Source of the DNA: Gammaproteobacteria bacterium
GTDB taxonomy: Bacteria > Pseudomonadota > Gammaproteobacteria > GCA-2400775
Reading direction: 5' to 3'
Assembly (NCBI GenBank): GCA_015492075.1
Contig: WGFU01000040.1
Coordinates: forward strand, 1-56,334
DNA length: 56,334 bases
Shown here: piece by piece, positions 9,859 to 54,470 of the stretch
Position numbering within the stretch: position 1 is the first letter of the stretch
How the letters are laid out: every line of letters begins with the position of its first letter
Notes under the pieces: model-generated
Database searches by the model: none
Told to the model about the DNA's origin: nothing
The model's input: the letters and a program-made list of their open reading frames with translations, nothing else
Made by a program: the position numbers and the translations under genes

Positions 9859-12219
9859 TTAACGCTGAATCTGTACAGCTTGTTGGCTAAAGTCATACAT
9901 CATAGTCGCCGATACGGCTGCCGGCACGTACACACAATTATCAGCTACGCGCTCGTTGATCCGTAGCGGTAATGATATCTCAACACCCGACGCACTGAGA
10001 CGAACTTGATTCGCATCTGTCAGTCCGTGCTTTTCAGCGCATCGGCTATTCATACTCGCTGCCTGTGTATTTTTCGCATCAACGGTATTTTGTAACGCAG
10101 ACGCTCTACGAACGATGGCATCGACTGCATACATTGGTACGTCGCTGACAGTATAGACCTCACCGCCGCCTGTTTTCAGTTCAGCGGGACATCGCCAGCC
10201 ACCCAATAAGTCAGGTGAATCTGTCGTCATACGAGCGACTTCATCGCGTACTTCTTCTGAGCTGGTATAGTCGAAACCTTCAACCTGGCACAGATTACCG
10301 AGCACTCGCAGCACCTTCCAGGCAGGTCTTGCCTCGCCGGGCGGAGGAACAGAACCAGTAAAACTCTGCCAATTACCCTCGATATTAACAAATGTGCCAG
10401 ACGTTTCAGAAAATGCACCGATAGGCAGCAACACATCTGCATATTCACGCATTGTGTCGCTAACGTAAGCTGACAGCATCACCGTGAGTTCCGCATGGGA
10501 CAGCGCACTAATAGCCTGCTGAGCGTTAATAACATCAAACTCGGGTTCAATACCTAACAATATGTAGGACCTCAAACCTTGGGTCAGCATCTGCTGTGTA
10601 TTAAGCCCAACACGTGATGCTGCCACACCATCAACGACGCGATGCGGCACCGCACCAGCCAGCCATGCACCTGAGGAATTAGCTCCATCAGTCAATGCCC
10701 CCAGTGAGCTGTGGCTCATTTTCGCAATCGCAATCGCTAATGCCCTGATTGTGGCGTAATCATGATGATGTAATAACTGTGTACCCAGAATAACGGCTGA
10801 CTTGTCACCATCGCTTAACTGTTGCGCAATCGTACGCTGTGGCTGACTGACAGTGACGCCATTAACCAAGTTCGCAATACCCCCCGGAGCGCTTGCGCCC
10901 TTTTCTAGCAGTGCTTTGGCAATGCCTGCTAATTCACTGGCATAACAAGATGGTGATACGATAATGGTCTCTGCGGCAGAAAAACTGAGCTCATAGTCCA
11001 AGCCATTAACCAACGATACTTTAGCACCCGCCAACGCCGCCTTACGCAAGCGGTGCCCTGCAATAGGTTGCTCCTTGCGAATGTTGGAGCCGACCAACAG
11101 GGCGGCATCAAGCTGATCCAGCTCACGAATTTTTATGCCCAGTGACGGGTAAACCGGTGCAGTATCGTCGGCACTAAAATCCAGCTGGCGCATACGGTGG
11201 TCAACATTGCTGGAACCTAGATCACGCACCAGTTTTTGTAACAAGAAAGATTCTTCCAAAGTCGAGGATGGGGATAGCAAAGCACCTATCTGGTTAGCAC
11301 CGTGCTGCTCCCTAATCGTATCGAAAGACTGCGCGACCTTGGTCAGGGCCGTTTCCCAATCCACCTCCTGCCAAACACCACGTTCTTTAATCATGGGTTG
11401 CAACAAACGATCGTTGCTTAAACCTTGGTAGGAAAACCGGTCACGGTCAGAGATCCAGCACTCATTGATATCTTCGTTATCGCGTGGCAAAGCACGTTTA
11501 ATTTTATCAAAACGATTATGGAGAACAATGTTAGAACCCAAACAGTCATGCGGCGCAATAGTTTCGGTAGCACTTAATTCCCACGGACGTGATGTATAAC
11601 GAAACGGTTTCGAGGTTAAGGCGCCAACGGGACAAAGATCGATCATATTGCCAGACAACTCGGAATCGATACTCTTTTCTACATAGGTGCCGATTTCCAT
11701 ATGCTCACCACGACCAGTCGCGCCTAGCTCCATGATACCAGCAATCTCCTGACCAAAACGGACACAACGAGTGCAATGAATGCAGCGTGTCATATCAGTG
11801 CTAATCAATGAGCCAAGGTTTTTGTCCTTAACGACACGTTTAGCATCAGTATACTCAGAAGAATCGCCGCCGTAACCCATAGCAGTCTCCTGTAAATCAC
11901 ACTCACCGCCTTGATCACAAATTGGGCAATCCAACGGGTGGTTAATTAACAGGAATTCCATGGTGCCGCGCTGAGCCGCCAGCGCCTTGGGTGACTTGGT
12001 ATGAACTGTCATACCTTCCATCACCGGTGTTGCGCAAGCTGGTAGCGGTTTGGGCGCCTTTTCCACTTCGACCAAACACATGCGACAGTTAGCAGCAATT
12101 GACAGTTTCTCGTGATAGCAAAAACGCGGAATATAAATCCCCGCTTTATCAGCGACTTCAATCAACATAGCACCGCTTTCGGCTTCGAGCTTTTGACCGT
12201 CTATCTCAATGGTTACCAT
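9859..12219 (-). CDS. nuoG: NADH-quinone oxidoreductase subunit G (iron-sulfur)
   Basis: This 786-residue peripheral subunit belongs to the molybdopterin-oxidoreductase fold and carries several Fe-S clusters. From the N-terminus: a 2Fe-2S ferredoxin domain with CYHEKLSIAANCRMC and ACATPV, a His-containing segment HPLDCPICDQGGECDLQ (cluster N5), and the CIHCTRCVRFGQEIAG 4Fe-4S motif, then a large catalytically silent molybdopterin-like domain. An open frame continues 270 bases upstream into nuoF, but the start chosen is the ATG at 12219 (MVTIEIDGQKLE), which matches family N-termini and leaves a 16-bp gap after the nuoF stop. The ribosome-binding site there is weak. Confidence 0.93.
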   Translation of the reverse strand: MVTIEIDGQKLEAESGAMLIEVADKAGIYIPRFCYHEKLSIAANCRMCLVEVEKAPKPLPACATPVMEGMTVHTKSPKALAAQRGTMEFLLINHPLDCPICDQGGECDLQETAMGYGGDSSEYTDAKRVVKDKNLGSLISTDMTRCIHCTRCVRFGQEIAGIMELGATGRGEHMEIGTYVEKSIDSELSGNMIDLCPVGALTSKPFRYTSRPWELSATETIAPHDCLGSNIVLHNRFDKIKRALPRDNEDINECWISDRDRFSYQGLSNDRLLQPMIKERGVWQEVDWETALTKVAQSFDTIREQHGANQIGALLSPSSTLEESFLLQKLVRDLGSSNVDHRMRQLDFSADDTAPVYPSLGIKIRELDQLDAALLVGSNIRKEQPIAGHRLRKAALAGAKVSLVNGLDYELSFSAAETIIVSPSCYASELAGIAKALLEKGASAPGGIANLVNGVTVSQPQRTIAQQLSDGDKSAVILGTQLLHHHDYATIRALAIAIAKMSHSSLGALTDGANSSGAWLAGAVPHRVVDGVAASRVGLNTQQMLTQGLRSYILLGIEPEFDVINAQQAISALSHAELTVMLSAYVSDTMREYADVLLPIGAFSETSGTFVNIEGNWQSFTGSVPPPGEARPAWKVLRVLGNLCQVEGFDYTSSEEVRDEVARMTTDSPDLLGGWRCPAELKTGGGEVYTVSDVPMYAVDAIVRRASALQNTVDAKNTQAASMNSRCAEKHGLTDANQVRLSASGVEISLPLRINERVADNCVYVPAAVSATMMYDFSQQAVQIQR

Positions 12220-44688: not shown

Positions 44689-44714
44689 CGCTTCGCTATC
44701 GCGTTAGCGAAGCG
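44689..44714. repeat. Perfect 10-bp inverted repeat over the cheB stop codon
   Basis: CGCTTCGCTA (44689-44698) and TAGCGAAGCG (44705-44714) are perfect arms around a 6-base loop. The arms include the last codons and the TAG stop of cheB. A second, weaker stem AGCCG/CGGCT lies just downstream. No T run follows, so it may act as an mRNA-stabilising or Rho-assisted end structure for the che operon. Confidence 0.6.
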
Positions 44715-45775
44715 ATCTTTCCAACAATTTTATCAAGCGGCAAGATACTGCTAACGGCATCCAGTTTTACTGCGGAACCTGGCATACCCCAAACGATACT
44801 GGTTTTTTCATCCTGAACGATGGTGTGTACACCAATATCATGTAATTCTTTCATTCCCTCTGCGCCATCGTCACCCATACCGGTGAGAATAACGGCTATT
44901 GCATTGGTACCTACATTTTGCGCGACGGATCGAAACATAACATCGACCGAGGGACAATGGCGGTTAACCGCCGGCCCATGGTTCAATCTGCATACATAAC
45001 GAGCACCGTTACGCTCTACCAATAGATGAGCATTGCCTGGAGCGATATAGACGTGACCACGCAAAATCTGTTGGCCATCACTGGCCTCACAAACTGTCAT
45101 CGCAGAAGAGGCATTCATGCGCTTGGCAAATGGTGCACTGAATGACTGTGGAATATGTTGGCTGATCACAATACCCGGCGCATTGTGAGGCAGACTACTG
45201 AGCACCTCTCTGATCGCTTCGGTACCACCAGTCGAGGCACCAATAGCAATAACTTGGTCGGTGGTCTTAAAGAGTTTGGCCCGTGTATTTTTAGCCAGGA
45301 TAGCATCTGCAGAAAGTTTTTGCGTTGCATGCATTGACTCGGCTTTGCGCTTGAGCGTTTCCTTTGAGACGCTGGCGGCAATTTTAACTTTGCTAAGAAT
45401 TTCATCAGAAAAGTCTTGCAGGCCACGGGCAACGTCCAACGCAGGTTTGGCAATATAGTCTATAGCGCCGGTTTCCAGCGCTTGCAGAGTGACATCTGCA
45501 CCCTTGGTGGTCAGTGATGACACCATAATGGTCGGGATTGGATGCAGGCGCATGATATTACGTAAAAAGGTAATTCCATCCATACGTGGCATTTCAACAT
45601 CCAGCGTCAAAACATCCGGCTCAAGCTGCTTGATTTTATCGCGAGCCATATAGGGATCATGGGCAACGCCAACAACTTCTATGTCGGGATCATCACTCAA
45701 AATCTGGCTCATCATCTGTCTGACCAGGGCAGAGTCATCTATCACCAATACGCGTATTTTTGAATTGTGTGGCAT
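44696..45775 (-). CDS. cheB: Chemotaxis methylesterase/glutamine deamidase CheB
   Basis: This 359-residue response regulator removes methyl groups from the receptor for adaptation. The N-terminal receiver domain has VLVIDDSALVRQMM and the phospho-acceptor aspartate 59 in TLDVEMPRMDG. A linker follows, then the esterase domain with VIAIGASTGGTEAIRE (catalytic serine), ISQHIPQSF (catalytic histidine) and ILTGMGDDGAEGMKEL (catalytic aspartate). The frame starts 11 codons earlier, but MPHNSKIRVLVIDD at 45775 is preferred. It is the last gene of the che operon, 13 bp after cheD. Confidence 0.95.
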   Translation of the reverse strand: MPHNSKIRVLVIDDSALVRQMMSQILSDDPDIEVVGVAHDPYMARDKIKQLEPDVLTLDVEMPRMDGITFLRNIMRLHPIPTIMVSSLTTKGADVTLQALETGAIDYIAKPALDVARGLQDFSDEILSKVKIAASVSKETLKRKAESMHATQKLSADAILAKNTRAKLFKTTDQVIAIGASTGGTEAIREVLSSLPHNAPGIVISQHIPQSFSAPFAKRMNASSAMTVCEASDGQQILRGHVYIAPGNAHLLVERNGARYVCRLNHGPAVNRHCPSVDVMFRSVAQNVGTNAIAVILTGMGDDGAEGMKELHDIGVHTIVQDEKTSIVWGMPGSAVKLDAVSSILPLDKIVGKIASLTR

Positions 45776-45788
45776 AGTTTCCCTACAT

Positions 45789-46439
45789 TTAAAATAAGTC
45801 GATCTCACCTTCTACCGGTGCCTGATCCAATTCATTCCGATATTTCAATTCGCGAGAACTTATCGTGTTGTTATGAACCGAGCGAAGCTTCTTGATACTG
45901 GCCTTACCTGTAAACGGGTTATAAATCACTTTACGTGGATAAACATCGCCAGTATCTTCGGCAGCGGCCTTGAAGCCTTCCATACGTAGATATTGTTTTA
46001 CAAACTTGATATTGCGCTCACCTACATCCGTCATCTGTGCAAGTACGCTACCTCCGCCAAATATCTTAAACTCAAGATTGGCTCGTTTGCCTCCATACTT
46101 GAGTATGGTATTAATCAAATACTCCATCGCCACATTGCCGTAACGAGCGGCCGCACTGACATCAACCTGGTTGCTTTGCGAGTGCGAATTTTTCAGAGGC
46201 AACATAAAATGATTCATACCTCCAACCCCGTTAACAGGATCACGAATGCAGGCTGAGATACACGAACCGAGCACTGTGGTAACGAGTTCGTTAGCCCGGG
46301 TGACATAATACTCACCTGGCAGAATTTTGGCCGCGCAAATATTACGCTGCTTATCCCAGTAGCGATTAATATGTTCGAACCCAAGTAATGCGGGCGGCAT
46401 ACTCCTGCGAGCAACCATTTTTTTTTCCGAAGCTGTCAT
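45789..46439 (-). CDS. cheD: Chemoreceptor glutamine deamidase CheD
   Basis: This 216-residue protein deamidates receptor glutamines and may bind phospho-CheY or CheB-type partners. The catalytic core is visible: the nucleophile in VTTVLGSCISACIRD (about 53-67) and the histidine in GVGGMNHFMLP (about 71-81), followed by RANLEFKIFGGG. The N-terminal 30 residues are a variable extension. The start overlaps the cheR stop (ATGA), so it is translationally coupled. CheD in this position is typical of Che2/Aer2-type clusters. Confidence 0.93.
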   Translation of the reverse strand: MTASEKKMVARRSMPPALLGFEHINRYWDKQRNICAAKILPGEYYVTRANELVTTVLGSCISACIRDPVNGVGGMNHFMLPLKNSHSQSNQVDVSAAARYGNVAMEYLINTILKYGGKRANLEFKIFGGGSVLAQMTDVGERNIKFVKQYLRMEGFKAAAEDTGDVYPRKVIYNPFTGKASIKKLRSVHNNTISSRELKYRNELDQAPVEGEIDLF

Positions 46440-47296
46440 GAACTCGCCAATTTGTATATCGTCTGACCCAATAAATCGAAACGATTACTAACGCGGTACA
46501 AACTTTCAGAATGGCCCATGAGCAAATACCCGTCAGGATTGATGATTCTAGAAAACTTCTCCATAAGCGTTTTCTTGGTTTCAAGATCAAAGTAAATCAC
46601 TACGTTGCGACAAAATATGATGTCCATCGGGCCGCGCATTGGCCACTCATCCAATAAGTTTAATTGTTTAAATGTAATTAACTCATGTATGCTGCGCTTG
46701 ACCTGTACTTTATCCTCGTTTTCGCCTTTACCTGTTTGAAAAAAACGTTTTTTTCTCGCAACACTAAGATTTTCAATGCGTTTTTTTGTGTATATGCCCT
46801 TAGAAGCAGTAACAAGCACATTGGTATCAAGATCAGTCGCTAAAATCTTAATATCCCAGCCAGATTTTTCTGGTATGACTTCTCTCACCACCATTGCAAT
46901 ACTATAAGGTTCCTCTCCAGTTGAGCAGGCTGAACTCCATATGCGAATGCGTCGCGTATCACGATTGCTTTCCATAAGCTGAAGCAGTGCCTTTTTGGCG
47001 AGGAACTCGAAGTGATGATTTTCTCTGAAAAACATGGTGAGGTTTGTTGTCACAGCGTTGGTGAAACTGACAAACTCATCCTCTGAGTTTTTTTCCTCCA
47101 AAAGAGCCAGATAATCGGAGAAACTGCTAAGTTTCAGATCACGAAGGCGGCGACTCAAGCGACTGTATATCATGTCACGCTTGGCGTCCGATAAAGTAAT
47201 TCCAGTGCGCGTAGTAACGATAGAACGAATCACCTGGAAATCTTTATCCGTAAACTTGAATTCTCTTTCGGCGCTGCTTGAAGTGGCTGCTCGCAT
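46436..47296 (-). CDS. cheR: Chemotaxis protein methyltransferase CheR
   Basis: This 286-residue enzyme methylates receptor glutamates with S-adenosylmethionine. The N-terminal helical domain contains ITLSDAKRDMIYSRLSRRLR (about 33-52). The SAM domain has TNLTMFFRENHHFEFL, IRIWSSACSTGEEPYSIAMV (about 118-137), ILATDLDTNVL and DIIFCRNVVIYF, ending GYLLMGHSESL. The beta-subdomain that binds receptor pentapeptides is within this region, which matters because the adjacent receptor ends in EWEDF. A terminator-like hairpin separates it from the receptor gene. Confidence 0.95.
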   Translation of the reverse strand: MRAATSSSAEREFKFTDKDFQVIRSIVTTRTGITLSDAKRDMIYSRLSRRLRDLKLSSFSDYLALLEEKNSEDEFVSFTNAVTTNLTMFFRENHHFEFLAKKALLQLMESNRDTRRIRIWSSACSTGEEPYSIAMVVREVIPEKSGWDIKILATDLDTNVLVTASKGIYTKKRIENLSVARKKRFFQTGKGENEDKVQVKRSIHELITFKQLNLLDEWPMRGPMDIIFCRNVVIYFDLETKKTLMEKFSRIINPDGYLLMGHSESLYRVSNRFDLLGQTIYKLASS

Positions 47297-47335
47297 ATCA
47301 CCTATTTTCCAAGTAATTTTTTAAAAAAGACGAAT

Positions 47336-47387
47336 AACAGGGGTTACTTAACTCTCACACTCAATTCTCAACCGCCTTACCCCTGTT
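47336..47387 (-). terminator. Terminator-like hairpin between receptor and cheR
   Basis: On the minus strand AACAGGGGT(A)A (47377-47387) pairs with T(T)ACCCCTGTT (47336-47346), ten of eleven matching, around a 30-base loop. ATTCGTC and TTTTTT follow. The long loop makes it a weak terminator. Inside the che operon it could lower cheR-cheD-cheB relative to the receptor. Confidence 0.45.
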
Positions 47388-47413
47388 CAGCACAAACATG
47401 ATCTGAAATGAAT

Positions 47414-50296
47414 TTAGAAATCCTCCCACTCACCATCATTATCATTAACCGCTTTTTTGTTTGAACGTGACGCAACTGAGGCCGAAGACCTTGTTGGTAC
47501 CGGCTCTCTCCTTGCAGTGCGTGTCACTGGAGCTCTTACTTCGGTTTTGTCACCGACTTCAAAGAAGTCCAGCATTTCAATCAAACCATTGCTTTGGTCG
47601 TTAACGGACTCGCTGGCAGCAGCCGCTTGTTCGACCAGTGCCGCGTTCTGCTGCGTGGTCTCATCCATCTGGGTGACGGCTTTATTGACTTCCTCAATTC
47701 CCGCCGCCTGTTCTTGGCTTGCAGCAGCAATTTCAGCAATAATATCGCCCACCTTCTTAACGGCATTAACTATCTCGTCCAGAGTGGCGCCTGAATTGTC
47801 AACAAGTCGCGAACCTTCTTCGACTTTTTCAACACTGTCCTTGATTAAGGTTTTTATCTCCTTCGCCGCCCCAGCACTACGCTGAGCGAGATTACGCACT
47901 TCAGAAGCCACAACAGCGAATCCGCGACCTTGCTCTCCGGCACGCGCTGCTTCTACTGCGGCGTTCAGAGCCAGCAAGTTTGTCTGAAACGCGATTTCAT
48001 CGATAACACCAATAATATCCGCAATCTTTTTGCTGGAGGCATTGATCTCACTCATGGCGACAATCGCCTCGCTCACGACTTCACCCCCCTTCTCGGCCTG
48101 CTCACGGGCCCCAACTGAAAGCTGGTCAGCTTGCTTCGCGTTATCTGCATTTTGTTTGACCGTGCTGGTAAGTTGTTCCATGCTGGCTGCCGTTTGTTCC
48201 AGGGAGGCCGCCTGTTCTTCTGTGCGTTGGCTGAGATCTTGGTTACCTTGAGCAATTTCACCGGCAGCGGAAGTAATACTGTCTGATGATTCGCGTATCT
48301 GACTGACAATATTCAGCAGGTTTTTCATTGTCACGTTGACTGCGTCGCGCAATTCAGCAAACTCACCGCTGTACTCATCTTCCATGGATTGCGTCACATC
48401 GCCTTCGGCAAGAGATTTCATTACTCGGGTAACATCCTTAATCGGTTTAACAACCGTGTCAACCAACACATTAATACCGTCACCTATTGTCTTCATGAAT
48501 CCCTCATATTGATCGGTGCTAATTCTCTCATCGAGATCACCTTTGACGGCTTTATTAATCAAGCTTTCTATTTGACGTTCCGCATCCTTCTGGCTGGTGA
48601 TATCGAGCCATTCAACCATGTTGCCCATATATTCTCCATGTGGCCCTAAAATAGCAGTGGCATTTACGGAGAAACTCAAGTCGCCCACATTAATATTAGC
48701 TTTTGCCGGCAAACGATTTTTATCCGCCAGTAATGCACGTTGATGGGCCGGATTCTTGTGGAATTGGTCAATGCATTGCCCAACAATATTATTGGTATCC
48801 AGGCTTGGCCAAATCTCGCGCAGCTCAGCCTGACGACTAGACAACATATCTATTACCGCAGGATTGGCATATGTAATCACCAAGTTTTCATCACACAACA
48901 TAAGATTGGCTTGCGCACCATTAATCGCTGACTGCAAGCGAGCAACCTCTGTTTCTTTCATCCTGACTTCCGTTACATCAGACCATTCAAGTGAATTTCC
49001 ATTGTAATTACCTTTCGCATCCATAATGGCACTAACGTTAATATTAAATGTTAACGGGCCCACTTTAATGTCAGTTGTATAAGGTAGATTATTTGGGTTA
49101 CTCAACAATTTCCGCTGATGAGCAGGGTTTTTATGGAAGCTATCGATGCAGGTACCAATTATTTTACTTGAATCGAAACCCGGGTAGACTTGCCGCAGAG
49201 TTTCCTCATGGCTGGCCAGTAAATCTCTAGTAGATTGGTTAACATAAGTAATAACCAAGTCTCGATCTATCATCATGATCGCGGTCATAGCGTTGTCTAC
49301 GGTGCTTTGCAAGCGCATGACATCGGTATCGCGCTGCCGCAGCTGGGTAATATCCGACCATTCCAAAGTATTACCACTGTAGTTTCCATGAAGATCATAA
49401 ATTGCGGTAACATGAAGCCGAAAACATAATGGGCCGACATCGATATCGGTATCGTAGGGCAAATTATTCGGGTCATCGAGAATCCGGCGCTGATGTGCCG
49501 GGTTCTTGTGGAAATCATCGATACATTTTCCGATCAGTGTGTCAGCCGAGAATCCCGGATAAATCTCTGCCAATGCGCTTTCGTGTGTTTTCAGTAAATT
49601 AACAGTCGCCTCATTGGCATAAGTAATAACCAAATTTCTATCGATGGTCATTATTGCAGACTGGGCACCATCAACGATGCTCTGTAGCTTACCCATTTGC
49701 TCCCTGATTGCTGCTGCTGATAATTTGACGCCTTTTTCCATACTTTTTTTGTTTGCAACCATTGCTACTTCCTCCTGATCGTCATAAGCCGAAATCATTG
49801 TTGCGGCTACCGTACTTAATGCCCTGCTCCAGGCTTGCTCGGCCTGTCGAGTCCACAAGTCTCCAGCGAACTCCTTCATCACCTGAAGCAGAACTCGCGT
49901 CACCTTTGTATAATGAATGGGTAATGCCCCGTACTCTAGATGCCTTTTTCCCAAATTTGAAAGCACTTGAACTAAATTATCTGGTGAGCGCAAATTATTA
50001 ATAACTAAATTCAGTGCCAAGAGCAGTTTTTTCTCCTGCTCCTTGCGTGAAGTATTAGCAAATAAGGAAGCGATATCGGGGTATTGCTCGAATAGCTGAT
50101 TGTAAAAATGGCTTACCAGCGCAGGCGCTTGGGGCGACAGTGCCTGGAATGTGTCTTCGAGTAACTCGACATTCAAACCCAGAAGGTTATTCTTGCCAAC
50201 TGGTTTTTTTAAACGAGTCGACTTAGGCTTTCCAACCTTGCTATCAGCACACGCCTTCAACCGTGTTGTGCCATTTCTTTTATTTCTGCTCCCCAT
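47414..50296 (-). CDS. Soluble globin-PAS3-HAMP methyl-accepting chemoreceptor (Aer2-like)
   Basis: This 960-residue protein has no transmembrane segment. Order: basic leader (1-38); flavohaemoglobin-type globin (about 40-172) with SLF at the CD corner and proximal-histidine motif GKRHLEYG (His119); three PAS repeats (about 203-320, 325-445, 450-570), each with FHKNPAHQ exactly 125 residues apart (His263, 388, 513) and EW-D 50 residues later (Trp313, 438, 563); a HAMP-like segment (about 575-665); and a signalling domain with the tip [22 protein letters not shown] (about 767-788). The C-terminus EWEDF is a CheR/CheB-docking pentapeptide. Position in a cheY-cheA-cheW-X-cheR-cheD-cheB cluster is that of Pseudomonas Aer2. 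Haem binding is inferred. Confidence 0.93.
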
Positions 50297-50328
50297 GCCA
50301 TAATCCTAGATTTGTTAGTTTAATAGCT

Positions 50329-50505
50329 TCACACACCTTTCCAGACAAGCTCGGAGAATATCTTCTCGAGCCATGCTCCTAACGCCGTTGGCTGACTGCA
50401 TCGCTTCTTACACGCATCATCTGCATTGAGAACAGCTTGGCTGTCTTTTTTGAGCGCTGTATCAAAAAGTAAGCAATCTGCATTAGAACGATTAAAATTC
50501 CTCAT
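50329..50505 (-). CDS. Possible 58-aa protein between cheW and the receptor gene
   Basis: An ATG frame of 58 codons fills the gap between cheW and the receptor. It starts 21 bp after the cheW stop with GGTGAGG just upstream and ends 32 bp before the receptor ATG. The product begins MRNFNRSNADCLLFDTALKK, has three cysteines and ends in an amphipathic stretch LGAWLEKIFSELVWKGV. No family is recognised and there is no membrane segment. Operon spacing and a ribosome-binding site support translation; the short length leaves real doubt. It could be a small coupling or assembly partner, which is only a guess. Confidence 0.45.
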   Translation of the reverse strand: MRNFNRSNADCLLFDTALKKDSQAVLNADDACKKRCSQPTALGAWLEKIFSELVWKGV

Positions 50506-50526
50506 AACCTCACCGCTATTGCCACC

Positions 50527-51051
50527 TTAGCAAGAAGCCTTGTCTATTGACTCCAGAACACTGCTGGTGAGCAAATGATCAATATCGAGCACGATAATCA
50601 TTTTTTCGTCCACTGTCGCCAAGCCCTTGACATAATCAACATTGACAACATTGCCAAAATCTGGTGGTGGTTTCATTTGGTCTTCTGATACATTGTAGAC
50701 ATCAGAAACACCATCTACCACAATACCCATCACTCTTTCGTCATCTTCACTAACAATTTTCAGAACGATAACTACCGTCAAAGGACTGTAGTTTACACTG
50801 TCAAGATTAAATCTCAGACGTAAATCAATAATAGGAACAATTGTGCCGCGCAGATTAATTACTCCCTTTATGTATCCCGGGGTATTAGGAATAAGTGTAA
50901 CGGTATCCCACCCTTTTATTTCTTGAACTCGCAATATATCAACACCGTATTCCTCGTCCGACAAAATGAACGTAAGATACTGGCTACTATCCGCACTAGT
51001 ATCCATACCTATTATCTCAGGTGCTGCCTCAATGGATTGTGTCGTGCTCAT
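50527..51051 (-). CDS. cheW: Chemotaxis coupling protein CheW
   Basis: This 174-residue SH3-like scaffold links the receptor to CheA. Motifs: YLTFILSDEEYGVDILRVQEIKGW (about 25-48), IPNTPGYIKGVINLRGTIVPIIDLRLRF (about 54-81), VMGIVVDGVSDVYNV and the C-terminal VKGLATVDEKMIIVLDIDHLL. Its start lies within the 3' end of cheA (23-bp overlap), so it is coupled to cheA. Confidence 0.95.
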   Translation of the reverse strand: MSTTQSIEAAPEIIGMDTSADSSQYLTFILSDEEYGVDILRVQEIKGWDTVTLIPNTPGYIKGVINLRGTIVPIIDLRLRFNLDSVNYSPLTVVIVLKIVSEDDERVMGIVVDGVSDVYNVSEDQMKPPPDFGNVVNVDYVKGLATVDEKMIIVLDIDHLLTSSVLESIDKASC

Positions 51052-53206
51052 CCGGTATCTCCTTATTCATATTGGCTATAATGATTTCCTGCCCGGAACC
51101 CTGTTGCGCCTCCCCAGCATGATCAGCAATTCTCTGTGATCGGAGCAGGCTTGTGTCCATTAACTTGGCACATCGAATCAGTCCTGCAATATCAAGAATA
51201 AGCGCAACGGTACCGTCGCCGAGTATCGTGGCACCAGATAGACCATTAACAGGCTTATAGTTTGTTTCCAGACTTTTGATTACAACCTGTTGTTGGGCAA
51301 GCAGATCATCTACGATCAGTCCGGCTTTTTGACCTTCACCTTCAACGACCACCATAAGACCTCCATCAATTGACAGTTTTTCTTTTGGTATACTAAAAAT
51401 ATCACTGAGATGAATGATGGGGATATAGTCTTCACGCAATAAATAAACCTGCGCCTGACCGGCAATGGTATTAACCTGTGCAATCTTGATTTGCAACGAT
51501 TCGATGATCGAGGTTAAAGGAACAATATAGGTTTCTTCGCCAACACTCACTAATTGGCCATCTAGTATTGCCAATGTAAGAGGCAAACGAATCAGCATGC
51601 GAGTGCCTTTTCCTTGTTCTGACTTGATCTCTACATTGCCGCCTAAATCACGGATATTACGCCGCACGACATCCATGCCAACGCCTCGTCCGGACACATC
51701 ACTAAGCGCTTCGGCGGTAGAAAATCCGGGTTGAAATATCAGATCGTAGATCTTCTCTTCAGAAATCGATTCATCTTCATTGACCAAGCCACGCTCTATT
51801 GCCTTACTCAATATCCTGTCGCAATCCAAACCCTTACCGTCGTCGCGAATCTCTACAACGATATTACCGCCCTGATGACTGGCATCAAGATACACGGTTC
51901 CCGTCCCCGGTTTGCCTGCAGCGATACGTTCATCCGGTTTTTCGATACCATGATCAATGGAGTTGCGGACCAGATGAACCAAAGGGTCACCGATTTTTTC
52001 CATAATCGTTTTATCAAGTTCCGTTTGCTCTCCTGTAATTACTAACTTGATATCTTTACCCATTTTTTTAGCCAGATCATGAACCATGCGTGGAAAACGG
52101 CTGAAGATAAAACTGATTGGAAGCATGCGTACACGCATCACACTCTCTTGCAATTCTCGTGTATTGCGTTCCAGCTGAGCAAGCCCTTCACGTAACCTTT
52201 CAGTGCGACGATTGTCACATTCCCTATCATCATCAATCTCCGACCCTATTTGACCAAGCATTGACTGCGTGATAACTAACTCGCCGACAAGATTGATAAT
52301 ATCATCGACTTTGTCGATGCCAACACGAATCGACGTGACTTCGCTAGTCGCGGTTTTTTTTACTTGGCCGACATCGGTTTTCTTTATACTTTGAGCACCA
52401 GCACCATCCTTAGTGCAATCCTCACCCGCACTCGAAACAAGCGCATCCGGCACTTTCGTACCATCTTTTTCTGATCCGCTTTCAATTGGGACGATGTCAA
52501 GATCACATTCGTCTTCTACCCATTCAAACACTTCGTATATCTGCTCTTTGGCCACATCACCGATGAGCCTTAAGCTCCAGCTCAAATAACAATTTTCAGG
52601 ATGTAGATCGTCGAAATTCGGGAGGCCTGAGGAATCAACTGTAACCGAAAGTTCGCCAAGTTCAGATAAGACGCTAAACATAGGCAGCGGGTCGTTACCG
52701 GTTCTCAGCATACTCGCAAGAGGTTTAAACCGTATATCCCAGCCCGTGCTGATTGATGTATTGACCTGGGTCAACTCTACAGTTTCTTGCTCCGGATCAA
52801 CTGTAGAATTGGAATTATTTTTCCCCAGTATGGCAATCAATCTATTTTCATTCTCAGTAACAACCTGGTCATGGATATCACCACCATCTCTTGTCGCGTT
52901 CAACATAGAACGGACACAATCGACTGATTGGAGTAAGCAATCAATACTCTCTTGATCAACCTTGCGTTTATTATCTCGCATCTCGTCGAGCAAGGTTTCG
53001 AGTAAATGTGTAAAGGCTGCAACTTCACTGAAACCAAAAGTTCCGCTACCGCCTTTGATCGAGTGCGCAGCACGGAATATAGTATTTATAATATCCTTGT
53101 CAGTCGAACCAGCTTCGAGATCTAGCAGGTTCGCTTCCATAATATCAAGCCCCTCAAAACTCTCGTCAAAAAAGGTTTGATGGAACTGCTTTAAATCGAT
53201 GGACAT
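51029..53206 (-). CDS. cheA: Chemotaxis histidine kinase CheA
   Basis: This 725-residue kinase phosphorylates CheY and CheB in response to the receptor. HPt domain P1 carries FRAAHSIKGGSGTFGF with phospho-histidine 48. A region around 155-250 (GWDIRFKPLASMLRTGNDP) looks like the P2 response-regulator-binding domain. The P3 dimer helix contains VDDIINLVGELVITQSML. The ATPase has DPLVHLVRNSIDHGIEKPDER (N box), IRDDGKGLD (G1) and FSTAEALSDVSGRGVGMDVVRRNI (G2). A CheW-like P5 domain follows. It is 3 bp after cheY. Confidence 0.95.
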   Translation of the reverse strand: MSIDLKQFHQTFFDESFEGLDIMEANLLDLEAGSTDKDIINTIFRAAHSIKGGSGTFGFSEVAAFTHLLETLLDEMRDNKRKVDQESIDCLLQSVDCVRSMLNATRDGGDIHDQVVTENENRLIAILGKNNSNSTVDPEQETVELTQVNTSISTGWDIRFKPLASMLRTGNDPLPMFSVLSELGELSVTVDSSGLPNFDDLHPENCYLSWSLRLIGDVAKEQIYEVFEWVEDECDLDIVPIESGSEKDGTKVPDALVSSAGEDCTKDGAGAQSIKKTDVGQVKKTATSEVTSIRVGIDKVDDIINLVGELVITQSMLGQIGSEIDDDRECDNRRTERLREGLAQLERNTRELQESVMRVRMLPISFIFSRFPRMVHDLAKKMGKDIKLVITGEQTELDKTIMEKIGDPLVHLVRNSIDHGIEKPDERIAAGKPGTGTVYLDASHQGGNIVVEIRDDGKGLDCDRILSKAIERGLVNEDESISEEKIYDLIFQPGFSTAEALSDVSGRGVGMDVVRRNIRDLGGNVEIKSEQGKGTRMLIRLPLTLAILDGQLVSVGEETYIVPLTSIIESLQIKIAQVNTIAGQAQVYLLREDYIPIIHLSDIFSIPKEKLSIDGGLMVVVEGEGQKAGLIVDDLLAQQQVVIKSLETNYKPVNGLSGATILGDGTVALILDIAGLIRCAKLMDTSLLRSQRIADHAGEAQQGSGQEIIIANMNKEIPDEHDTIH

Positions 53207-53209
53207 CTT

Positions 53210-53572
53210 CTACCCCAGCACTTTTTTGACCGTTGCCAATAGCTGATCAGGGTTAAAAGGCTTAACAATCCAGCCAGTAGCGCCAGCAGCTTTTCCGGCT
53301 TGTTTCTTTTCCGCTGTAGATTCGGTCGTTAGCGTCAAAATAGGAATAAATTTATAGGTGGGTAACGCTCGTAACTCTTTAGTCAGAGTAATACCGTCCA
53401 TATTCGGCATATTGACATCAGTGATAACTAGCGAAAATTTTTTTGACTTCGCTATTCCTAATGCCTCTTTACCATCTTTTGCCTCAGTCACTTGGTATCC
53501 GGCCCCTTTAAGGGTAAACGCAACCATCTGCCGCATGGACGCCGAGTCATCTACTGCCAATATATCTGCCAT
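53210..53572 (-). CDS. cheY: Chemotaxis response regulator CheY
   Basis: This 120-residue single-domain receiver has LAVDDSASMRQMVAFTL at the start (acidic pocket), phospho-acceptor aspartate 52 in VITDVNMPNMDG, TLTTES with the switch threonine/serine, and KPFNPDQLLATV with the conserved lysine. It resembles the CheY of Che2-type clusters. Whether it acts on the flagellar switch or another output cannot be told from sequence. It lies 48 bp after the STAS gene and 3 bp before cheA. Confidence 0.95.
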   Translation of the reverse strand: MADILAVDDSASMRQMVAFTLKGAGYQVTEAKDGKEALGIAKSKKFSLVITDVNMPNMDGITLTKELRALPTYKFIPILTLTTESTAEKKQAGKAAGATGWIVKPFNPDQLLATVKKVLG

Positions 53573-53620
53573 TAAAATATCTCCAATCCGTACATATTTG
53601 CCTTAGAATTGTTTCCATAG

Positions 53621-53923
53621 CTAGCTATTACTTGCCTGAGAGGGTGCAACGAAGGGAGGGGACTGCGTCACTAACCCGAGTTTCTCCATCGCGCTGCCGA
53701 CGGCGCGCGAAAGCTTCCAATCGACTGTCATACTATTTGACTGAGCTGAACGCATATACGCATATAACAATTGTGCTATAGCAGTATCTATACGTTCGGT
53801 TCGTGTCGCATCTATGGTGATGGAACTGGTACTTCCGTAGGTGCTCTGGAGAAGTTCGTATACGTGCTCGGCATCAGCTATCCCGAGCTCACTATCTAAT
53901 ATAATGTGCGATGTATCTTCCAT
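53621..53923 (-). CDS. STAS-domain protein of the chemotaxis operon
   Basis: This 100-residue protein has the STAS (anti-sigma-factor-antagonist-like) fold pattern: a beta strand HIILDSELGIADAEHVYELL, then SITIDATRTERIDTAIAQLLYAYMRSA (about 34-60) with the loop-helix typical of the family. The usual phospho-serine position of SpoIIAA (D-S-S-G) reads D-T-A-I here. It is the first gene of the che operon. Its ATG is preceded by AAGGATT and lies about 27 bases after the predicted sigma-28 start. Small STAS proteins often lead cheY-cheA operons, but their role is unclear. Confidence 0.85.
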   Translation of the reverse strand: MEDTSHIILDSELGIADAEHVYELLQSTYGSTSSITIDATRTERIDTAIAQLLYAYMRSAQSNSMTVDWKLSRAVGSAMEKLGLVTQSPPFVAPSQASNS

Positions 53924-53956: not shown

Positions 53957-53983
53957 GTATCGGCCAGCGCAAGTCTCACTTTA
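53957..53983 (-). promoter_or_regulatory. Sigma-28 (FliA) promoter of the che operon
   Basis: On the minus strand TAAAGTGA (53976-53983), an 11-bp spacer and GCCGATAC (53957-53964) match the FliA consensus TAAAGTTT-N11-GCCGATAA at 13 of 16 positions, with the exact spacing. The predicted start is about 27 bases upstream of the STAS gene. This ties the operon to the flagellar regulon although no flagellar gene lies in the window. Confidence 0.75.
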
Positions 53984-54252: not shown

Positions 54253-54470
54253 TTACGCTTTAAATGGAGCTTTTATATTGGCGGCGGCCGAGAGAAAACT
54301 GCCTAGCCCCGGGATCATAGATGCGGCCGCTCATGTACATGAGACCGAATTCTTCTAAGTACTGCTAGCCAATGAAGCCGCGGTTGACGGCCGTGGAGCT
54401 GGCGACCAGGGAACCATCGGCACGTTTGACCTCGTTGACGGGATGATTTCGTCATCTAGCGTGACGACAG
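54253..54470 (-). pseudogene. Rhs/YD-repeat core domain remnant
   Basis: Read on the minus strand, this stretch spells RNHPVNEVKRADGSLVASS, then TAVNRGFIG, a TAG stop, QYLEEFGLMYMSGRIYDPG. It then continues in the +1 phase as LGSFLSAAANIKAPF. This is the RHS-repeat-associated core ending (compare GFTGHE-L-EFGLMYMNGRIYDP-LGRFLSADP). There is one in-frame stop (TAG at about 54367-54369) and one frameshift after the CCCGGGG run near 54308-54312. An upstream TGA also interrupts the frame. No start, N-terminal repeats or toxin tip is present, so it is a dead fragment of a polymorphic-toxin-type gene. Confidence 0.75.

Follow-up and report, generated by a model that had tools for sequence, protein, structure and literature searches.

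The chemosensory operon that spans 53923 to 44696 on the minus strand of the window (the whole stretch of gammaproteobacterial DNA analysed, 56,334 nucleotides) is preceded by a FliA (sigma-28) type site at 53983-53957. The same site precedes the same operon in many gammaproteobacteria, so it is very probably a real FliA promoter. Judging by sequence and conservation, we are confident that it functions as such and makes the operon part of the flagellar regulon. This wiring was the core of the original prediction, and it gains support from the conservation of the site and from flagellar genes elsewhere in the genome. The response regulator of the operon probably does not itself turn the motor, while comparison with related systems makes indirect effects of the array on swimming likely. 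The promoter and the genes of the operon are as follows.

53957 to 53983, minus strand: predicted FliA (sigma-28) type promoter, TAAAGTGA-N11-GCCGATAC, 13 of 16 positions matched
53621 to 53923, minus strand: STAS-domain protein, first gene of the operon (PF13466), with Ala at the usual phospho-Ser position
53210 to 53572, minus strand: CheY of F7 type (PF00072; phmmer match to 4h60/4hnr, E 1.2e-40)
51029 to 53206, minus strand: CheA, with Hpt, H-kinase_dim, HATPase and CheW-like domains
50527 to 51051, minus strand: CheW, by domain match
47414 to 50296, minus strand: Aer2-like soluble receptor, with globin, PAS repeats, HAMP and MCP signalling domain, C-terminal EWEDF
46436 to 47296, minus strand: CheR, by domain match
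45789 to 46439, minus strand: CheD, by domain match
44696 to 45808, minus strand: CheB, by domain match

Read along the minus strand from 53983 to 53957, the site is TAAAGTGA GACTTGCGCTG GCCGATAC. It was scored against the consensus TAAAGTTT-N11-GCCGATAA, with 16 positions and a spacer of 11. Both the 13/16 match and the spacing of exactly 11 are as originally claimed; the distance to the STAS gene, given as 27 bases, measures 33 nt from the end of the -10 element to the ATG at 53923. No other match with three or fewer mismatches occurs in the window; shuffled windows contain 0.56 such sites on average, and at least one was present in 41 of 100 shuffles. Taken alone, a 13/16 match is not beyond chance and is weak evidence, and the significance of the site comes from its position and conservation rather than from the match by itself. 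A sigma-70-like match, CTGGCA-18-TATATT at 54020-53991, is located just upstream and is of a strength also reached by shuffled sequence. Farther upstream, in the gap between the promoter and a rhodanese gene, about 100 bp within 54270-54410 are dense in palindromic restriction sites (CCCGGG, GCGGCCGC, TGTACA, GAATTC, AGTACT, GCTAGC and CCGCGG), giving a polylinker-like look; this stretch has no plasmid matches and is present once in the genome.

Conservation was assessed in a class-wide sample of 144 relatives, one per family except for the genus of the window. The cheY gene served as an independent anchor, found with at least 59% identity in 42 genomes (three weaker ones were left out), and a STAS gene was recognisable before it in 25 of the 42 loci. 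In the 350 bp upstream that were searched, a match of 12/16 or better was found for 17 of these 25 STAS-cheY clusters, and one of 13/16 or better for 12 of them. The antisense strand has such a site in three of 25, two of them in the gap to a divergent second operon, and other spacings give one to three of 25. Control genes were taken from the named loci where no less than 80 nt of upstream sequence was available; 12/16 is reached in 7/108 of them and 13/16 in 1/108, and a second control set gave 6/145 and 1/145, respectively. With the genus collapsed to one and a contig-end case dropped, the site is present in 14 of 21 families (binomial probability about 2e-12). The dropped case, G068 (L161), is a contig-end artefact that is counted as a miss in the 17/25. 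Where no STAS gene was recognised (17 loci), nine also reach 12/16 before cheY and are counted neither way; some of these may contain a STAS that escaped recognition.

In the first test based on STAS genes (16 of 21 loci), most of those with an F7 cheY after them had an upstream FliA-like site, and those without cheY after them reached 11/16 at most. The named sample consists of 80 loci fetched by cheY alignment, 38 of them STAS-cheY. A site of at least 12/16 lies within 350 bp upstream in 14 of the 38, ten from Xanthomonadaceae or Rhodanobacteraceae and four from uncultured gammaproteobacteria. The other 24 count against the FliA site as a general rule; among them is every locus from Shewanella (three), from Pseudoalteromonas (three) and from outside the gammaproteobacteria (eight). 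Pooling the 38 named loci with 14 from the STAS search gives 27 of 52 with the site. A logo from 31 sites reads TAAAG-N14-GCCGATA with a random spacer, and in an alignment of four congeners both hexamers are near-fixed (4/4), while the surrounding DNA has diverged.

FliA itself was found in 36 of the 42 genomes with an F7-like cheY versus 48 of the 102 others (Fisher p 1.4e-5). It is encoded in 23 of the 25 STAS-cheY genomes, the exceptions being the window's assembly and G038. In G130, a genome that is 98% complete, a 14/16 site precedes cheY (contig C25, L181), but the FliA search found nothing up to its limit.

The assembly that contains the window, as contig C40, is 80% complete and 1.65 Mb long; HMM searches of it for FliA and FlhA found nothing except an RpoH-like gene. 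A genome devoid of flagella, as these searches had suggested, was discarded as a reading in view of contig C2 and the congeners. C2 carries a flgB-to-flgK region (named by eye, apart from a FlgJ-type Pfam match), cheR, cheV, flgA, flgM, flgN and a YcgR-like gene, and FliA and FlhA are both present in all four other congeners; the organism is thus very probably flagellate, with a fliA region that the assembly seems to have missed. The original prediction was to fall if the genome had no fliA or flagellar genes: the flagellar genes are there (flgB-flgN, flgM, cheV and cheR on C2), and fliA is absent from the 80%-complete assembly. In a genome-wide scan, TAAAG-N14-GCCGATA is over-represented at up to two mismatches (295 matches versus 203 for the reversed control); a spacer one base longer gave 180 versus 166. 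There are 31 matches with no or one mismatch. Of the best ten, which were examined, five precede flagellar or chemosensory genes, namely flgM-flgN, cheV, an MCP gene, an MCP-STAS-phosphatase operon and the STAS gene of the window, and the remaining five are upstream of unrelated genes.

The gene order STAS-cheY-cheA-cheW-receptor-cheR-cheD-cheB, with its Aer2-like receptor, is that described for F7 systems of stage 1, such as cluster III of V. cholerae and the cluster of M. alcaliphilum (Ortega et al. 2020, PMC7184735). Stage 1 clusters have two cheW-like genes and an mcpA-STAS-serine phosphatase module at the downstream end. The window, in contrast, has a single cheW at 50527-51051, its receptor has an extra globin domain, and the mcpA-STAS-PP2C module is located on another contig (C5), being divergently oriented in two congeners. 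Because of the one cheW and the displaced module, the cluster is stage-1-like and not a strict member of stage 1. An F6 system alongside, as in the congeners, is part of the published description of stage 1 (PMC7184735). The chemotaxis operons of E. coli (F7 stage 5) differ from the window in that their receptor is Tar-like and their CheY and CheZ are of F6 origin, according to the same source. The promoter also sets the window apart from V. cholerae, where F7 is reported to be RpoS-dependent, that is, linked to the stationary phase (PMC7534058).

Each PAS repeat of the receptor contains the sequence FHKNPxHQ (at residues 262, 387 and 512), putting several haem-type sensors into one soluble protein. 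The C-terminal EWEDF resembles a CheR tether. The STAS protein at the 5' end of the operon was considered as a phosphorylated anti-sigma antagonist. Of 63 aligned relatives, however, 47 have Ala at its phosphosite, the copy of the window included, making switching by phosphorylation unlikely. A search of the PDB with it found no relative at E values up to 1.

The original prediction went on from the promoter to a CheY that acts on swimming, and here the evidence does not follow it. The nearest solved structure to the CheY of the window is V. cholerae CheY4 (phmmer E 1.2e-40), described as phosphorylatable and as giving no pull-down with FliM (PMC3774744). No cheZ is present within 44696-53923. 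A second CheA and a CheZ, belonging to a separate F6 system, are found in all four other congeners, in the order fliA-cheY-cheZ-cheA in the three loci examined (G001, G002 and G003); neither was found in the 80%-complete assembly of the window. The F6 CheY of the congeners has Tyr at the position where the F7 CheY has Trp. The CheY4-like CheY and the separate F6 system leave the step from a FliA promoter to a CheY acting on swimming unsupported. An output through a sigma-factor partner switch or through tuning of the F6 system is more likely than direct control of the motor.

The partner switch would involve a second operon. Two congeners, G003 and G004, have mcpA, STAS and receiver/PP2C/ATPase genes in an operon that diverges from the same intergenic region, with a 13/16 FliA site of its own. 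Orthologues of this operon are present in the window's genome on contig C5, also behind a 13/16 site, with proteins 64%, 68% and 75% identical to those of G003. The STAS protein encoded there keeps the DSS phosphosite (VDSSALG), giving a receiver-PP2C-ATPase with an adjacent STAS that has a phosphorylatable Ser. This domain order is the one of CrsA-CrsR from the Shewanella F7 locus and of HsbA-HsbR from P. aeruginosa (PMC9855816, PMC6482189). The F7 system of S. oneidensis, Che1 with CrsR-CrsA, also has genetic links to McpA, to a STAS antagonist and to a receiver-PP2C-ATPase (PMC9855816, PMC6482189); unlike it, the genus of the window has FliA promoters on both operons and lacks an RpoS match. 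None of the five genomes of the genus (G000-G004, two of them 95% complete) has an RpoS above the NCBIfam family cut-off, which three of three genomes from other families pass. The only sigma factor matches seen in G001-G004 are of RpoD size, RpoH-like or FliA.

RpoS was therefore rejected as the target of the partner switch in this genus, and the sigma target must differ from that of S. oneidensis CrsR-CrsA. The HsbR-HsbA-FlgM system of P. aeruginosa shares the receiver-PP2C-ATPase and the phosphorylatable STAS, and FlgM is encoded in the genome of the window too; in its published description, HsbRA is fed by HptB and no link to an F7 cluster is given (PMC6482189). Should the partner switch control a sigma factor in this genus, the likelier target would be FlgM/FliA. 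An IS3-like element at the contig end (55018-56334), with two overlapping frames and inverted repeats at its bounds, is located on the side where the congeners carry the divergent mcpA operon. It may have separated the two halves in the genome of the window.

We propose the following sequence of events. The FliA promoter at 53983-53957 would start the STAS-cheY-cheA-cheW-receptor-cheR-cheD-cheB operon, so that the cell builds the array once its flagellar programme has come to the FliA stage. A second FliA promoter, on C5 and divergent in congeners, would drive mcpA, the phosphorylatable STAS and the receiver-PP2C-ATPase, resembling crsA/crsR of the Shewanella F7 locus. The globin/PAS receptor would report oxygen via CheA to the F7 CheY and probably also to the receiver-PP2C partner switch. 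The output would bear on sigma factor availability or on the F6 chemotaxis system, not on FliM. The output is less certain than the promoter, and the partner switch as its route is a tentative suggestion.

The promoter may alternatively serve timing and coexpression only, the array being built with the flagellum and tuning the F6 system through CheY as a phosphate sink, through shared receptors or through cross-talk of CheB, CheR or CheD. This is a possibility of modest weight. In P. aeruginosa, Che2 is reported to tune the Che pathway according to oxygen (PMC9864684), McpA of Shewanella, although encoded in the F7 operon, functions together with CheA3 of F6 (PMC9855816) and a phosphate-sink role has been suggested for V. 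cholerae CheY4 (PMC3774744), but tuning alone does not account for the STAS and PP2C genes that accompany the cluster under a FliA promoter of their own.

If phosphorylated F7 CheY acted directly on the switch of the flagellum, the FliA-driven operon with its globin/PAS receptor would give aerotaxis. This reading would agree with the conserved promoter and with the enteric F7 system, which does control the motor (PMC7184735). In E. coli, a Trp at the position of Tyr106 is not by itself enough to prevent binding to FliM (cited in PMC3774744). However, the closest relative, CheY4, fails to bind FliM (PMC3774744), the cluster is without CheZ, the F6 cheY-cheZ-cheA genes adjoin fliA in the congeners and the motor CheY of E. 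coli is described as derived from F6 (PMC7184735), all of which makes direct motor control improbable.

That the 13/16 site is an unused chance match, with transcription starting from an ordinary sigma-70 or other promoter, would fit the 0.56 matches expected per window, the nearby sigma-70-like match (itself at chance level) and the missing fliA, but is very hard to reconcile with a site conserved before the same gene across families, with near-fixed hexamers in diverged flanks and with the 7/108 of the control genes.

Returning to the FliA promoter as the probable start of the operon, the consequences concern what F7 arrays are for. The function of the older ones is stated to be unclear (PMC7184735), and no description of FliA control of a stage-1 F7 cluster was found in the open-licence PubMed Central literature searched. 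The cases that have been studied point to the stationary phase; the conserved FliA promoter puts these arrays in the flagellar regulon instead. FliA-linked arrays occur in many uncharacterised gammaproteobacteria and in culturable Xanthomonadaceae and Rhodanobacteraceae; with such carriers the function of F7 becomes testable in swimming, rather than starving, cells. In E. coli, the F7 kinase genes are under sigma-28. The wiring described here bears on the later takeover of the E. coli motor by F7, which may have joined the flagellar regulon beforehand. A more speculative reading, to which we give rather little weight, is that in this genus, with no RpoS match, the oxygen-sensing F7 array and the CrsA/CrsR-like switch, both transcribed by FliA, act back on FlgM. 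The array would then govern how much of the flagellar sigma factor behind its own transcription is available, and with it the commitment to swim in response to oxygen, and not the motor; wiring to FliA would be common, and perhaps old, among stage-1-like F7 systems, and the RpoS control of V. cholerae would be lineage-specific.

In several relatives, the F7 cluster is found directly behind flagellar genes: fliI-fliJ in L068 (FliJ and a FliI-type ATPase by Pfam) and fliG-fliH-fliI-fliJ in L073 (FliG and FliJ by Pfam). The same order was recognised by eye before the cluster in L071, L075 and L078; Pfam supports the ATPase of L071. The cluster follows flgA-flgM-flgN in a Chromatiaceae locus (L086) and fliJ-fliK in G039. 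The cluster lacks its own FliA site in four of these loci, L068, L071, L075 and L078, where it may be transcribed from the flagellar operon. The F7 clusters of Shewanella and Pseudoalteromonas (L079 and L085), also with no FliA site, follow the cytochrome oxidase assembly genes ctaA, ctaB and SCO1.

Two FliA genes are present in eight of the 144 genomes (G037, G039, G056, G068, G081, G105, G129 and G136). A second FliA dedicated to F7 was considered, but among the eight neighbourhoods examined only that of G039 has a copy at the end of the F7 cluster, after cheB. In several of these genomes the second FliA gene is near a recR-like gene (named by eye) and has a 12-13/16 FliA site before it. Five of 86 loci (L067, L068, L072, L192 at 11264-12049 and L193) have a gene for a ParA/BcsQ-like ATPase between cheA and the receptor gene; none was seen in the window.
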